Source: Pseudomonas sp. GM41(2012) (GTDB lineage Bacteria > Pseudomonadota > Gammaproteobacteria > Pseudomonadales > Pseudomonadaceae). Taken from it: a stretch of DNA of 64,000 nucleotides. How positions within the stretch are numbered: the first letter of the stretch is position 1; each line of letters starts with the position of its first letter. The stretch covers positions 434,001 through 498,000 of the forward strand of contig NZ_AKJN02000006.1 in assembly GCF_000282315.2 (NCBI RefSeq), given 5' to 3'. Shown one piece after another: positions 3,139 to 8,324 of the stretch. The notes under the pieces were generated by a model that saw only the letters and a program-made list of their open reading frames with translations, was not told where the DNA came from and made no database searches. Both the position numbers and the translations under genes were made by a program.

Positions 3139-5409
3139 CTAATTATTGAACCCTGCTATGAAGTTCTCATAGGAACCCTGTGCTCCAGAAAGGTGAGCAT
3201 TGAGGGTCTGCAATGGTCTCCCCAACTTAAAGCGTCGCTGTTGACCAGCCCCTCGGTTCTCGATTTCTTCGACGACTTTGGTGGAAATCAAATCAGGTAA
3301 GGTATAATCAATAAAGGTTTGACCCCGATCACCCAACTTAATCTTAATCACAGACTCGCTGATATGGGTGCTGCGCATAAAATAGCGAAATAACTTCTCA
3401 ACACTTACGAGTCTTTCATCCATCGACAATGACTCAACATCCACTGCCTCCGCTACTTCTCCGCCATTCAAAAAAGTATTGTGCTTAGCTAGATAAGCCT
3501 TGATAGCATTTGGCTCCCAAATTTCCAGACTCGTTTCGTCGAACCGAATGGAATCAATAGTGCACGAGGTGAAAGTATTACGACCAATATTTGTCGAAGG
3601 AAAAAGCCTCAACTGCCCAAAAGTACACTCTACAAATTCACACGAAGCAATCTCCGTGGCTTCATAACTGCTATGCGAAAAATAACACTTGAAAAACAAG
3701 ATTCCGCTTAACTTACAATCACGCATAGAATCTACGCCGAAGACCATACCTTCTAATTCAAGCCCATTAGAATCTATGTCGCTGATAATTTTTAGTACTA
3801 GGTTGCCACAATTCTCTTTTGTATAAGAGGCCTGCCCATCGAGCTTGCTAATTGAAGCAAGAAATTTAGCCACCTCAAGTTTTTTATCGTCGCTCTCTCT
3901 CCTTACAGCCCGAATAAATTCGAGCTGAGAATTTTCAGGCAGAATACCTCGACGCAGCACGCTCAGCGCTTCAGAAGCCGCGCTTTTGGTTAGCGGAAGA
4001 ACGATGCGTGCTAGGCCGTCGCCTAAGAAGTACTGACGAAATTCATCATGATCAAACTCCACCGCAAGATTAATGTCAGGAGACGCAATAAGTAACGCAT
4101 GCCCTCTAATCCGGTCGCGCACCTGCTGGGATTGCAATGAAGACTTACGCTTCAACTCACAGAAATACTCAGCTACAACGTCCAAATGATCTTGCTTCAA
4201 GTACTCAATACGACTTTCCCACATATTGATGGCAATTAAAGATAAAAGCTCACAATGTTCCTCCACCGTGATTAAGGTTGCCCCCATTTCGCCGGATCTA
4301 TCAATCCACTTTTCGTTGGCTTCGCGCTCAATAATGCTACGAACAAAGACAGAAAAGAAATCCGAACCGGACGCATGAATTTTCTCAATGAATTCCTCGA
4401 GCGACACACTTTCTTGTGCGATGTCAACTAATCGTCGTACCAATACGGGTCGTGTTAATAGAGAATGATCCGAGCCTAAACGTTCCGCGACCCTCTGATA
4501 AATCTCTCTTGAATTTTTCAGCTTGCGATTATTGCAATACTGTAGGAATTGAGCTTCTTCCCATCTATTCAGTTCTAGCTTAGAGAAGCCCACTGAAAAA
4601 CTGCTGATAGTATCGTAAAGTTTTTCTTGCGACTTAAGATTTTCAAATTCAAAATAAGCTTTACGGGCAGCAATAACAACTGCTCCCGTAGAATTCAATG
4701 CACCGACCAGAATACCCATCGCAGATAGAGCTTCTCCGGAGCTGTTCTCTACGAACATTTCCTCAAAGCCATCGAATGCTGGGATAATCACACCCATCCT
4801 GACGAGAGCCAAAAAAGAATTGTAATACAGAAACGGAAATCTATATTTATTCTGCAACGCCCCAACGGTGATATCATCAAAACGTAAAAAATGTCTGCCC
4901 CCCAGAATAATGGGAACTAAAAGCCAATCCGAACTGCCTTCCGAAAACTTAGCCGCTTGTTTTCTAGCAGCCGCATTGATTAGTGAGGTCTTACCCTCAC
5001 CCGCATCGCTTGTGACATAAAGCACAGTTGTTTCGAGCGGGCTATCTGTATCCAACGTCTTTAGTGTTTCGCTGAGCGCATCTGCGATGTGAAAAACTTT
5101 CCCATCTGGACTTGCTTCCAAGGTCGGTAAAAGGTCAGCTGCTGGGGAGACAAAATTTGGATGATTGGGAATCTGCTCAAGAATTCGCGAGCTTAATAGC
5201 TGCAATTTCGCCAACCTTTCGACTATCCACCTGCTCGCAGAGATCTCTCCAGCCCCTTCATTAATGAAAATATCTCCAAACTTCGAGGAAATCACAGCTT
5301 CAACGACATCGCCATTAATAGGAAACATCATTCGCTGACTATCAAAGATGATCTCCGACCCAGGATCGGCAAATGTTGCCACAATAGATTTAAAAGTATC
5401 GATCTGCAT
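3139..5409 (-). CDS. NACHT-like STAND NTPase with pentapeptide-like C-terminal region
   Basis: A 756-aa protein. Residues 1-120 are a non-catalytic N-terminal region. The NTPase has Walker A at 134-142 (SDAGEGKTS, Lys140), Walker B at 207-218 (VIIPAFDGFEEM, Asp213, Glu216/217) and a sensor Arg in VVIAARK (244-250). A helical region follows, then residues 548-623 are rich in Cys/Phe/Leu at five-residue spacing (CKLSGILFFKCYF, CEFVECTF), like an irregular pentapeptide beta-helix. The last 130 residues look like a winged-helix fold. STAND ATPases act as switch-like sensors, many in anti-phage immunity. Its ATG overlaps the stop of the upstream NYN gene by one base (TAATG), so the two should be translationally coupled. 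The DNA is visibly AT-richer than its surroundings. Confidence 0.85.
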   Translation of the reverse strand: MQIDTFKSIVATFADPGSEIIFDSQRMMFPINGDVVEAVISSKFGDIFINEGAGEISASRWIVERLAKLQLLSSRILEQIPNHPNFVSPAADLLPTLEASPDGKVFHIADALSETLKTLDTDSPLETTVLYVTSDAGEGKTSLINAAARKQAAKFSEGSSDWLLVPIILGGRHFLRFDDITVGALQNKYRFPFLYYNSFLALVRMGVIIPAFDGFEEMFVENSSGEALSAMGILVGALNSTGAVVIAARKAYFEFENLKSQEKLYDTISSFSVGFSKLELNRWEEAQFLQYCNNRKLKNSREIYQRVAERLGSDHSLLTRPVLVRRLVDIAQESVSLEEFIEKIHASGSDFFSVFVRSIIEREANEKWIDRSGEMGATLITVEEHCELLSLIAINMWESRIEYLKQDHLDVVAEYFCELKRKSSLQSQQVRDRIRGHALLIASPDINLAVEFDHDEFRQYFLGDGLARIVLPLTKSAASEALSVLRRGILPENSQLEFIRAVRRESDDKKLEVAKFLASISKLDGQASYTKENCGNLVLKIISDIDSNGLELEGMVFGVDSMRDCKLSGILFFKCYFSHSSYEATEIASCEFVECTFGQLRLFPSTNIGRNTFTSCTIDSIRFDETSLEIWEPNAIKAYLAKHNTFLNGGEVAEAVDVESLSMDERLVSVEKLFRYFMRSTHISESVIKIKLGDRGQTFIDYTLPDLISTKVVEEIENRGAGQQRRFKLGRPLQTLNAHLSGAQGSYENFIAGFNN

Positions 5410-6125
5410 TATTGTATCCCTAACTCGATTAGCGTCGAAGATCCCACTTTTATCGGCAACAACGCATTACTCATTTGCGGATGCACCCGAACAACATTAG
5501 CGCCCCTCAACAGCAACGTTCTAATTGGAGGTAAGAAATCATCGTCCGCACTTAATATGAAGATAAAATCGTATGCTTGATTGGCGAGATACATCAGGTC
5601 GCAAGTGAGCATAGTATCGACAAGCTTTTGCTCGTGCCTATAAACCAGCGAGTTTCCACCTGTAACACAGCCCTGCGTCGGACAACTTCCTTTTTGCAGA
5701 AGCTTTTTCGCTAAAGGTAGAGGGCAGGTCAAGGTGCTACAGCCGACAGATGCAGGAGTTTCCACACGTATATTGCTTGGGCGCCCCTTTCTGCGATAAG
5801 TATTGAATAACTGATGGCCCGGCTCTTCCAACAGCGAAACAGCGAGCTCCGCTGTCGTTCTTAAAACGATTATCCCACCGCGATCATTCGGAACGCGCAA
5901 TAAAGCGGGAAACTCGCTATGAATATTTACGGAGAGTTGCTGCGACAATACGCTTAGATTATCGCCCTCATACCACCCGCCGTATAATCGAACTTCACAG
6001 GCTCCCATGCTCTTGAGAAACATCTCCGAAGCTTGAGTAAGTGTTTTTTGCACGACATCTAAAACCCCTGCAGACTTCTGAAGGGGGCTAAGATTATCGT
6101 AATCAATACATATAGCTATCTTCAT
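5409..6125 (-). CDS. NYN-domain predicted nuclease with four-cysteine insertion
   Basis: A 238-aa protein. NYN/PIN-like acidic motifs are visible: IDYDN at 7-11 (Asp8, Asp10), KLVDTMLTCDL with Asp170 and Asp176, and FILSADDDFLPP with Asp194-196, the expected metal-binding pocket of a small RNase. Between strands, residues 125-155 carry four cysteines spaced C129-x4-C134 and C148-x4-C153, which could bind zinc. The ATG at 6125 has no clear Shine-Dalgarno and begins two bases after the stop of a small upstream ORF. It is the natural effector partner for the NACHT ATPase encoded next. Nuclease activity is inferred from the motifs. Confidence 0.85.
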   Translation of the reverse strand: MKIAICIDYDNLSPLQKSAGVLDVVQKTLTQASEMFLKSMGACEVRLYGGWYEGDNLSVLSQQLSVNIHSEFPALLRVPNDRGGIIVLRTTAELAVSLLEEPGHQLFNTYRRKGRPSNIRVETPASVGCSTLTCPLPLAKKLLQKGSCPTQGCVTGGNSLVYRHEQKLVDTMLTCDLMYLANQAYDFIFILSADDDFLPPIRTLLLRGANVVRVHPQMSNALLPIKVGSSTLIELGIQ

Positions 6126-6127
6126 TC

Positions 6128-6349
6128 TTAAACCGCACCATAAGGCAAAAAGAGAATAGGTTTAAGATAATGGGTCTCAAACGGACCATTTATGCGATTC
6201 ATCTCCACCATAGTGATACTCGCGCTGGAGAAGGCAACCAAACTGTGAATACAACTAGGGAAGCCAATAATAGGGTAGAGCCTATGCATGGGATCCTTCC
6301 AAGCAAGGTTGAAGTGGGTTTTCCAGTACAGCTGACAGGAGCTTAGCAC
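6128..6349 (-). other. Small ORF (73 codons, GTG start) leading into the NYN gene
   Basis: The frame is open from 6361 and has a GTG at 6349; it ends TAA two bases before the NYN ATG. Its composition (NLAWKDPMHRLYPIIGFPSC and later FETHYLKPILFLPYGAV) looks protein-like, not random. No family is recognised. It could be the first gene of the operon, the tail of a longer lost gene, or chance. Confidence 0.35.
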
Positions 6350-6361
6350 GGGTTGAGCAGG

Positions 6362-6822
6362 TCATTACCACTACCGACCTGCGAAGTAGAGTGGTTTTGT
6401 AGTGGACGAATCTCGTCCCCCCGTTGCTTCAGCTCCTGTGCATTGGGCAGCTCTTGAGGCCGGTCCGCCCCGCCTCGCTGCTTTCATATTTTCGCGGCGG
6501 TGATCGTGTGCCTCGCAGAGCAAGAGACCGTGGAGCCGGTGGCGACTAAAAGTGGGGGTGTAGCTAGGGTTCGGGCTTGCCAGCACCCGTACAACACACA
6601 TCTTGTCGTCTCTCGCTACGTGTAAAACTGCACCGCTATGCGTCTAGGTTTTGCTCAGTGATTTCAAATTGCACTGAATTCGGGGTTTTCCGCAGTCCTT
6701 AACACGCAGTAGAAGGAAGCTAAGCCGGCATTCTGAAGATGGCGCGGGAAGGCTCAGGGATGAAATGACTACAACGGGTCATAAGCAGCTTCTGGTGAAC
6801 GTCCGCTATTGGCCGATAACTG
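6362..6822. other. Gene-poor stretch upstream of the defence module
   Basis: No gene is supported in these 461 bases. A 76-codon minus-strand frame exists at 6371-6601 but has biased low-information composition and no ribosome site. The promoter of the NYN-NACHT operon should lie here; I cannot point to it with confidence. Confidence 0.4.
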
Positions 6823-7032: not shown

Positions 7033-7282
7033 GGCGATTCCTCCGTGGAAGATTCAGCGTAGCAGGCGGCAACGGCGGTGACACATACGGGGGCGCAGAT
7101 CCAGAGCGCCAATGGGGGTACATTCGGGCTGATGCCGGGCTGGAGGCAGGGGAGAAAGAGGAAAAATCCGTTCCGCAACCCAAAACTGGCTCCTTGAATG
7201 CCGGAGGATACAGGCCTTTAAAAATCAGTAGCTTGCGGAATGGTAAAGCTGCTAACCTATTGAAATAGCTTGTTTTGTGGAT

Positions 7283-7329
7283 GGATTGCAAATCCACCTA
7301 CGCCGGTTCGATTCCGACCTCGGCCTCCA
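7283..7329 (+). pseudogene. tRNA-Cys(GCA) 3' fragment: attachment-site remnant
   Basis: Forty-seven bases match the 3' half of tRNA-Cys: anticodon loop with GCA (7288-7290), T arm GGTTCGATTCC, and acceptor strand CTCGGCC followed by TCCA. The DNA before 7283 has no acceptor GGCCGAG or D arm, so no functional tRNA is encoded. Elements that insert in the 3' half of a tRNA leave the intact gene at one end and such a fragment at the other. The intact tRNA-Cys is therefore expected to the left, beyond this window. Confidence 0.85.
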
Positions 7330-7338
7330 CTTTAAACG

Positions 7339-7524: not shown

Positions 7525-7611
7525 GCCCGAATGGCGAAACTGGTAGACGCATGGGACTTAAAATCCCCCGCTCGTAAGGGCGTGCCGGTTCGATTCCGGC
7601 TTCGGGCACCA
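7525..7611 (+). tRNA. tRNA-Leu (anticodon TAA)
   Basis: A complete 87-nt tRNA. The acceptor stem is GCCCGAA/TTCGGGC, CCA is encoded at 7609-7611, and the anticodon TAA is at 7559-7561 in the loop CTTAAAA. There is a long variable arm (CCCGCTCGTAAGGGCG) as expected for class II tRNA-Leu. It follows the tRNA-Cys remnant as in the usual Gly-Cys-Leu cluster. Confidence 0.97.
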
Positions 7612-7693: not shown

Positions 7694-8050
7694 TCACTTA
7701 GTTGGTGAGACTTTCTTGCCCTTGCGGTTGCGGATGTACTGTTCCGTCATAACAACGGTGGTATGCCCAAGTTGATCCTTGGCCTGCATGATGTCGCCAC
7801 TCGATTCAGCCTTGTCCGTACCGGCTTTAGCGCGTAAATCACGCATTTGAAACTCGGACTTCGCGACACCTGCTGCCTCCCTGGCCAGGTCAAACCTTCC
7901 CCGCAACATTGCCACCGTCATTGGTGTGCCATCCTCCGAAACGATCAGCCGCGTCGAGCGGACCCTATGTTCTTTTTTTCGGGACATGATTCGATCGATT
8001 GCCAGGCCGTAGTCGCTGCCCAGCGCGATTTCTTTACGGTCCTCGACCGT
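7694..8050 (-). pseudogene. Phage tyrosine integrase, C-terminal 118 residues only
   Basis: The readable part runs from about TVEDRKEIALG to the stop and contains catalytic-domain landmarks: FQMRDLRAKAG (Arg box), DQLGHTTVVMTEQY with the LGH histidine, and the Tyr nucleophile 14 residues before the end. A full enzyme is 330-400 aa, so the N-terminal and core-binding domains are gone. The upstream side runs directly into another phage gene on the same strand, which shows a deletion fusion near 8050. It presumably once integrated the element at the tRNA-Leu site next door. Confidence 0.85.
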
Positions 8051-8324
8051 CCCCGGGGTTAATCTCTGGCGCCAGGTACGACAGGTCTTCTTCCAACTGA
8101 CCGAAGTAGTAGAGGTGTTCACCATCGCTGCCCCATTCAGGCTGGGCGGTGGCCCAAGTGCGGGCAGGAAGGCAATCGGGACATGTCTTGAAACTGGCCA
8201 TGTCGCCATCCCAGCAGCCGGTAATGAGCTGATACTGCTGACCTGGCTGAATCGGCCCGCAGCACTCACAGCATTTATGCTGCTTGCGAGCGGTGGGCGT
8301 GGATTCCGTTTGAAAATCGGACAT
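8034..8324 (-). CDS. Phage zinc-finger hypothetical protein
   Basis: 96 aa from the ATG at 8324 (MSDFQTES). Cysteines in HKCCECCGPIQPGQQY and FKTCPDC suggest a zinc site. The remainder (SDGEHLYYFGQLEEDLSYL) is acidic. No known function. Its last codons overlap the start of the integrase remnant, so its natural C-terminus may have been altered by the same deletion. Confidence 0.7.
   Translation of the reverse strand: MSDFQTESTPTARKQHKCCECCGPIQPGQQYQLITGCWDGDMASFKTCPDCLPARTWATAQPEWGSDGEHLYYFGQLEEDLSYLAPEINPGDGRGP

Follow-up and report, generated by a model that had tools for sequence, protein, structure and literature searches.

The 64,000-nucleotide stretch of Pseudomonas sp. GM41(2012) analyzed here (contig NZ_AKJN02000006.1, positions 434,001 to 498,000; hereafter the window) carries a two-gene operon encoding a NYN-domain protein and an NLR-like STAND ATPase. 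The pair is likely an undescribed type of bacterial NLR, with a NYN effector acting in trans. We consider it, with a probability of roughly 60%, to be a mobile module for abortive infection whose ATPase would sense infection and switch on the RNA cleavage predicted for the NYN protein, in a general alarm-and-shutdown fashion. A defense role is supported by three observations: embedding of the pair in restriction-modification (R-M) loci of relatives, its location as prophage cargo, and its patchy distribution.

The NYN gene comes first in the operon and overlaps the ATPase gene by a single base (TAATG), the two proteins being 238 and 756 amino acids (aa) long, respectively. A first-pass annotation had described both this overlap and a higher AT content than the surroundings, and both descriptions hold: the G+C content of the pair is 0.445 versus 0.577 for the window, and equals the minimum seen when 104 kb are scanned in 203 sliding windows of this size. 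A third conserved gene was looked for by clustering 812 flanking proteins from 63 loci; the biggest families reach 6 loci each, so the module consists of two genes. The largest of these families is HsdR (6 loci, two of them near-duplicates), and another family of 6 loci appears by eye to be an ABC transporter ATPase.

Adjacency of the two genes, which the first-pass annotation had proposed to search for, is conserved across bacteria. With the ATPase as the only query, in the form of two peptide patterns, we retrieved 58 loci from 84,980 species genomes, a lower bound given this search and a set that includes near-duplicates (L041 and L046 repeat L040, and L017 repeats L018). A NYN frame covering at least 180 profile positions lies directly upstream, on the same strand, in 53 (91%) of the 58 ATPase loci, with a spacing of -56 to +16 nt. 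The NYN gene is on the opposite strand in L051, and L035 is cut by a contig end. Divergences of the two proteins are correlated (Mantel r 0.867, 0/5000 permutations, 39 loci). Full-length copies also coincide exactly in two genome samples, with the ATPase (E <= 1e-10) and the NYN protein (E <= 1e-5) in the same 2 of 298 genomes of the genus, and the ATPase (E <= 1e-30) and the NYN protein (1e-15) in the same 3 of 398 genomes of the phylum. Neither count is independent of the set of 58 loci, since both samples include the window genome and two matches of the phylum sample sit on contigs as long as those of L012 and L013. Partial NYN matches in 11 further genomes of the genus (E 1.4e-9 to 1.7e-6, approximately positions 148-224 only) and two partial ATPase matches in further genus genomes (E 5.1e-13 and 2.8e-12) were rejected as generic domain relatives.

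On the tree of the ATPase (54 rows, 12 phylum labels), 17 label changes are needed, versus a minimum of 11 and 29.3 after shuffling. The tree is clustered yet crosses phylum labels repeatedly, as expected from horizontal transfer, with the proviso that metagenome bins may be contaminated. The pair has equal scores in L017 (a 'Clostridiales' bin) and L018 (Petrimonas); L017 is probably a mis-binned contig, and this Firmicutes record should not be counted. Compared with the copy in Lonsdalea, synonymous change is far commoner than nonsynonymous change in both genes (pN 0.107 and 0.118; pS 0.85 and 0.87, saturated). At an E-value of 1e-5, the ATPase has no match among 72,556 plasmid records, a protein search of the phage collection returned none, and neither did a DNA search of 20,395 Escherichia coli records at distant sensitivity. 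Solo NYN genes were not found in viral contigs, where the 4 and 3 NYN matches all lie on contigs also found by the ATPase query. IMG/VR contains the present stretch itself (L060, 100% identical).

The NYN protein passes the Pfam NYN model PF01936 (E 9.1e-7, 29.9 bits versus a gathering cut-off of 24.2), and its predicted fold is of the PIN/NYN type, resembling the NYN domains of MARF1 and VPA0982. Foldseek alone scarcely recognized this fold, and a profile of the NYN alignment gave a chance-level match only against PDB sequences (E 0.15). The earlier reading of a NYN-type fold with all expected acidic residues is borne out by the conservation of D170, D176, D194 and D196 in 64/64 aligned relatives and of D8 in 63/64 (with a gap in the remaining one); D10 is kept in 61/64. 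The acidic residues D358 and D426 of the MARF1 NYN domain, to which D8 and D170 were assigned, are named in the available portion of PMC6294520. The D170-D194 spacing of 24 is within the 23-26 of published NYN active-site residues. The subfamily also has a four-cysteine insert, in which C129, C134 and C148 are found in 64/64 relatives and C153 in 58/64; judging from this pattern, it presumably binds zinc.

The fold predicted for the ATPase is that of an NLR/NACHT protein with an NBD-HD1-WHD-HD2 arrangement. The Walker B motif of STAND ATPases consists of a small residue and an acidic pair (DGxEE), a pattern that fits the present protein and 66/66 relatives. The N-terminal ~57 residues amount to one helix and a few strands, with no N-terminally fused effector, the nuclease being encoded separately. 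Toward the C-terminus lies a short pentapeptide-repeat segment, for which a profile search matches McbG-like, MfpA and Qnr structures, and NCBIfam yields weak matches of this stretch only (HalA, Qnr). Pentapeptide repeats are detected by Pfam (E <= 0.01) in 23 of 32 ATPase relatives, and their sensor role is putative. The most variable parts of the ATPase are this segment, HD2 and the linker; the C-terminal domain (residues 665-756) is more conserved than the pentapeptide segment.

The first-pass annotation had placed the pair between phage genes and the attachment remnant of an inserted element, and this location is confirmed. An intact tRNA-Cys gene is found at L069:3262-3335, and its 3' end is repeated exactly (50 bp) at positions 7282-7331 of the window, the starts of the two repeats being 43,994 bp apart. 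The interval delimited by the repeats encodes a tyrosine integrase and a phage minor tail protein (Pfam matches), and it contains further open reading frames (ORFs) that we interpret as genes for a repressor, a primase, a portal and tail proteins, the portal gene being recognized by DNA match too. Since it sits between phage genes and this repeat (attR), the pair is prophage cargo, 1.2-4.1 kb inside attR. In a second member of the genus (G100), the pair also adjoins phage baseplate and tail genes, as judged by eye. At the left end of the prophage, outside the window, an AbiJ_NTD4 protein (L069:6322-7476(+), that is G000:C8:400322-401476; Pfam E 7.3e-27; no PADLOC match at 1e-10) is encoded between attL and the integrase gene. 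With this protein at one end and the NYN/ATPase pair at the other, both prophage ends look like defense cargo.

Some relatives provide a different setting. Four loci (L003, L005, L009 and L052) show the gene order hsdM, hsdS, NYN, ATPase, hsdR, in which HsdS and HsdR were recognized by Pfam in all four loci and HsdM by Pfam in L003 and by sequence clustering in L005, L009 and L052. Extra ORFs are located between hsdM and hsdS in L003, L005 and L009, and between the ATPase gene and hsdR in L003 and L005. In all four loci, which bear three phylum labels, the start predicted for NYN directly adjoins or overlaps the stop of hsdS. In addition, a type III methyltransferase gene is directly upstream of the pair in L010 (with SLFN and ResIII genes downstream), as is a type IIG enzyme gene in L015 and L039. 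These seven R-M-linked loci represent 6 changes on the ATPase tree, and seven of 58 is a lower bound, as the neighbors of the other 51 were named only in part.

Such arrangements invite another explanation, to which we give a low probability: the ATPase would monitor the integrity or activity of the R-M complex or of other DNA-level defenses and set the NYN RNase free once these are disabled by a phage inhibitor. The prophage copy would then guard another host factor. By analogy, PrrC offers a precedent, being an RNase encoded in a type Ic R-M locus (PrrI), which R-M proteins restrain until a phage anti-restriction peptide releases it (PMC3710099, in its available portion). The recurrence of type I, type III and type IIG neighbors favors this explanation, but no R-M gene lies beside the pair in the window and none was identified directly upstream among the other 51 of 58 loci, whose neighbors were named in part. 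Moreover, defense genes cluster in islands anyway, and matches to DISARM and type I specificity models are also present among control proteins more than 6 kb away.

Abortive infection sensed by the ATPase itself is the reading that we prefer. Gene order and coupling, conservation, model folds, prophage position and R-M embedding in relatives are observed; the mechanism that we infer would proceed by ATP-gated sensing, docking and release of the NYN protein, RNA cleavage and abortive infection. At rest, an ADP-bound, autoinhibited ATPase would keep the NYN protein inactive, as NLR biology and the conserved gene coupling suggest. An infection cue would reach the variable C-terminal half (HD2 and the pentapeptide beta-helix), and ATP binding would open or oligomerize the ATPase. 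The NYN protein, for which the small N-terminal domain of the ATPase may be the docking site, would then be activated and is predicted to cut single-stranded RNA of the host, the phage or both at its D8/D170/D194 metal site. Translation would stop and the phage burst would be lost. As cargo beside attR, the module would shield the lysogen from other phages.

Several observations weigh against this reading. Firstly, the pairing is not universal: L019 has the ATPase in intact surroundings without any NYN gene, the ATPase is intact in L024 and L054 while NYN is interrupted by a transposase-like gene (by eye; L024:8465-9625) or reduced to a fragment, respectively, and the NYN gene of L062 is split over two frames. 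Because of these loci, the ATPase may act or persist alone. Secondly, the earlier designation of a STAND/NACHT ATPase with intact Walker A and B motifs stands as far as the motifs and the predicted fold are concerned, but not at the level of family profiles, since neither NACHT nor any nSTAND model of Pfam clears its cut-off when the window protein is run through HMMER (E 0.036 for nSTAND1); among 32 relatives, one matches Pfam NACHT at E 0.0049 and 10 match nSTAND_NTPase5 at E <= 0.01. Thirdly, the C-terminal region is less hypervariable than might be expected for a direct sensor. Finally, neighbors are of a housekeeping nature and unrelated to defense in L021 (topoisomerase), L037 (GlyRS), L043 (M36 peptidase), L054 (PSD1 and TonB-plug proteins) and L057 (aminotransferase), and PADLOC family matches are only moderately denser near the pair (324 for 109 proteins and 171 for 98) than beyond 6 kb (143 for 109), a crude measure, as one protein matches many models and protein lengths are unmatched between near and far sets. 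The near set comprises 207 of 213 proteins (six were omitted, four of which exceed 1400 aa) and the far set a random draw of 109 of 179, with near-duplicates L017, L041, L046 and L060 omitted from both.

On the L019 locus itself, two genes upstream of the ATPase gene lie on the opposite strand (L019:8465-9718(-)), one of which shows by eye a metallo-beta-lactamase-like HYHYDH motif and has no Pfam match at 1e-4; its product is a possible alternative effector. Looser neighbors of the pair elsewhere, individually scanned after being picked by size and position rather than randomly, include GmrSD and an HsdR-family gene (L040), a type IV enzyme (L059), a SIR2 protein (L032), an AAA_13 protein (L038), an RmuC protein (L007), a PLD/SNF2 helicase (L036) and a caspase-like protein (L008). 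The large neighbor of the pair in L051, a sortilin-like protein, instead counts with the loci that lack a defense setting.

The overlapping two-gene layout, with the nuclease first and mobile elements as carriers, could also suggest a toxin-antitoxin or addiction module, in which a NYN toxin restrained by the large ATPase stabilizes the mobile element without phage sensing. We find this improbable, as NYN is intact in L055 while the ATPase frame is split, the plasmid records searched contain no match to the ATPase, and we know of no antitoxin resembling a 756-aa NLR-fold ATPase with invariant Walker motifs. A cellular RNA-processing or stress regulator unrelated to phages, as might be imagined from the loci amid housekeeping genes and from NYN domains serving ordinary RNA decay (e.g., Bacillus subtilis Rae1, in the available part of its description), is very improbable given the scarcity of the pair in the genus and phylum samples, its prophage and R-M contexts, and a tree crossing phylum labels.

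Is the pair already known under another name? AVAST (Avs) systems use STAND ATPases to sense phages, some with extra genes, and PADLOC-DB holds Avs models. The window protein is likewise a predicted STAND ATPase, but no PADLOC-DB model matches it at E <= 1. The search for an already named system, another check proposed in the first-pass annotation, yielded for the NYN protein only a weak match to the PADLOC candidate HEC-09 (E 7.9e-4, 54/203 profile positions), which covers the common NYN core only and is accompanied by no matched ATPase partner model; a search of the main PADLOC article text for the term HEC was negative. PHROGs gave nothing under E 0.013 for the pair. The novelty claim of the first-pass annotation therefore withstands both objections that it had raised itself, namely absence of pairing in other genomes and identity with a named system. 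The available portions of PMC10853773, PMC10910872, PMC3710099, PMC12893667, PMC13414232 and PMC8195603 do not describe a NYN-ATPase pair, nor did we find a paper on it in the literature on NYN with NACHT or on anti-phage defense, a coverage that mostly excludes subscription journals.

Described systems resemble the pair in part. Compared by description and not by sequence, bNACHT proteins share the STAND ATPase, the NLR/NACHT fold, the Walker A/B motifs, a mobile and patchy occurrence, and a putative C-terminal sensor; they carry an N-terminal effector or none discernible (PMC12169576, available portion), whereas in the present pair the presumed effector, NYN, has a gene of its own and the ATPase bears a pentapeptide beta-helix toward its C-terminus. 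CARD-NLR operons of Lysobacter and LypABC of Caulobacter combine an NLR-like ATPase with separately encoded partners (PMC13236601, available portion) and may thus, by analogy, be a precedent for an NLR acting through such partners; theirs are CARD, protease, gasdermin or other death effectors, unlike the two genes only, with a NYN nuclease, found here. PrrC and RloC likewise place an RNase under ATPase control, PrrC within a type I R-M locus like the pair in 4/58 relatives, but they fuse a HEPN nuclease to an ABC ATPase, while the present NYN (by Pfam) and STAND-like/pentapeptide proteins are separate. Lastly, the CRISPR-associated NYN ribonuclease of Bacteroides fragilis and the MARF1 NYN domain, both shown to be RNases, have the same fold and conserved acidic active site; they differ in that no NLR partner appears in the available portions of their published descriptions, and in that the window NYN subfamily has the four-cysteine insert.

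Table 1. Features of the NYN/ATPase operon and of the prophage edge, in window coordinates.
Feature	Position	Strand	Basis or remark
NLR-like STAND ATPase, 756 aa, second operon gene	3139..5409	-	ORF and predicted fold
C-terminal domain, residues 665-756, winged-helix-like	3142..3417	-	our reading of predicted secondary structure
Short pentapeptide-repeat (beta-helix) segment, candidate sensor region	3523..3720	-	Pfam Pentapeptide_4 E 8.5e-7, under its cut-off
Walker B DGFEE, residues 213-217	4759..4773	-	D213, G214, E216 and E217 in 66/66 relatives
Walker A SDAGEGKT, residues 134-141, Lys140	4987..5010	-	GEGK (137-140) in 66/66 relatives; T141 in 65/66
NYN-domain protein, predicted metal-dependent RNase effector	5409..6125	-	PF01936 above cut-off; fold like MARF1 and VPA0982 NYN domains
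NYN Asp194-Asp195-Asp196, third acidic cluster	5538..5546	-	D194 and D196 in 64/64 relatives; D195 in 47/64
NYN Asp170 codon	5616..5618	-	assigned to MARF1 D426; D in 64/64 relatives
Four-cysteine insert C129-x4-C134-x13-C148-x4-C153, zinc-ribbon-like	5667..5741	-	marks this NYN subfamily
NYN Asp8 codon, first catalytic Asp (predicted)	6102..6104	-	assigned to MARF1 D358 via motif and spacing, no superposition
Promoter-like site directly upstream of the operon	6153..6180	-	candidate; shuffles yield such sites as often
attR, 50-bp copy of the tRNA-Cys 3' end, right prophage edge	7282..7331	+	exact direct repeat

Two observations concern the flanks of the operon. A sub-threshold match to the traJ-II RNA (6509-6608(-); 34.7 bits versus a gathering cut-off of 40, E 8e-4) lies on the strand of the NYN gene, approximately 0.4 kb upstream of it, and is either due to chance or a conjugative-element relic. 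Directly right of attR, a tRNA-Leu gene (7525-7611) is followed by an ORF (7694-8269) whose C-terminal part, unlike its start, looks by eye like a tyrosine integrase, and then by phage-like ORFs; these genes would make up a second element, perhaps a decayed one.

The pentapeptide beta-helix fold is a DNA mimic in MfpA and Qnr. A speculative extension of our findings, to which we would give little weight at present, is that the pair typifies a widespread, unnamed NLR class with its effector in trans. This plug-in NLR-RNase cassette would have moved repeatedly into the space separating hsdS from hsdR and to positions behind type III or IIG enzymes, as a second line punishing anti-restriction via RNA shutdown; free-standing and prophage copies would guard other host functions, and the beta-helix would serve as bait for phage DNA-mimic or DNA-binding inhibitors. 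If true, bacteria would possess a 'guard' NLR coupled to restriction-modification. E. coli-based screens may have missed the pair because it was not found in the E. coli, phage or plasmid collections. The usual picture of a bacterial NLR is a single protein in which the sensor is fused to its effector, and a conserved pair with its nuclease in trans would add an RNA-cleaving branch to bacterial NLR immunity. Found under 12 phylum labels and repeatedly in R-M operons, the pair would offer a testable link between restriction and NLR guards.

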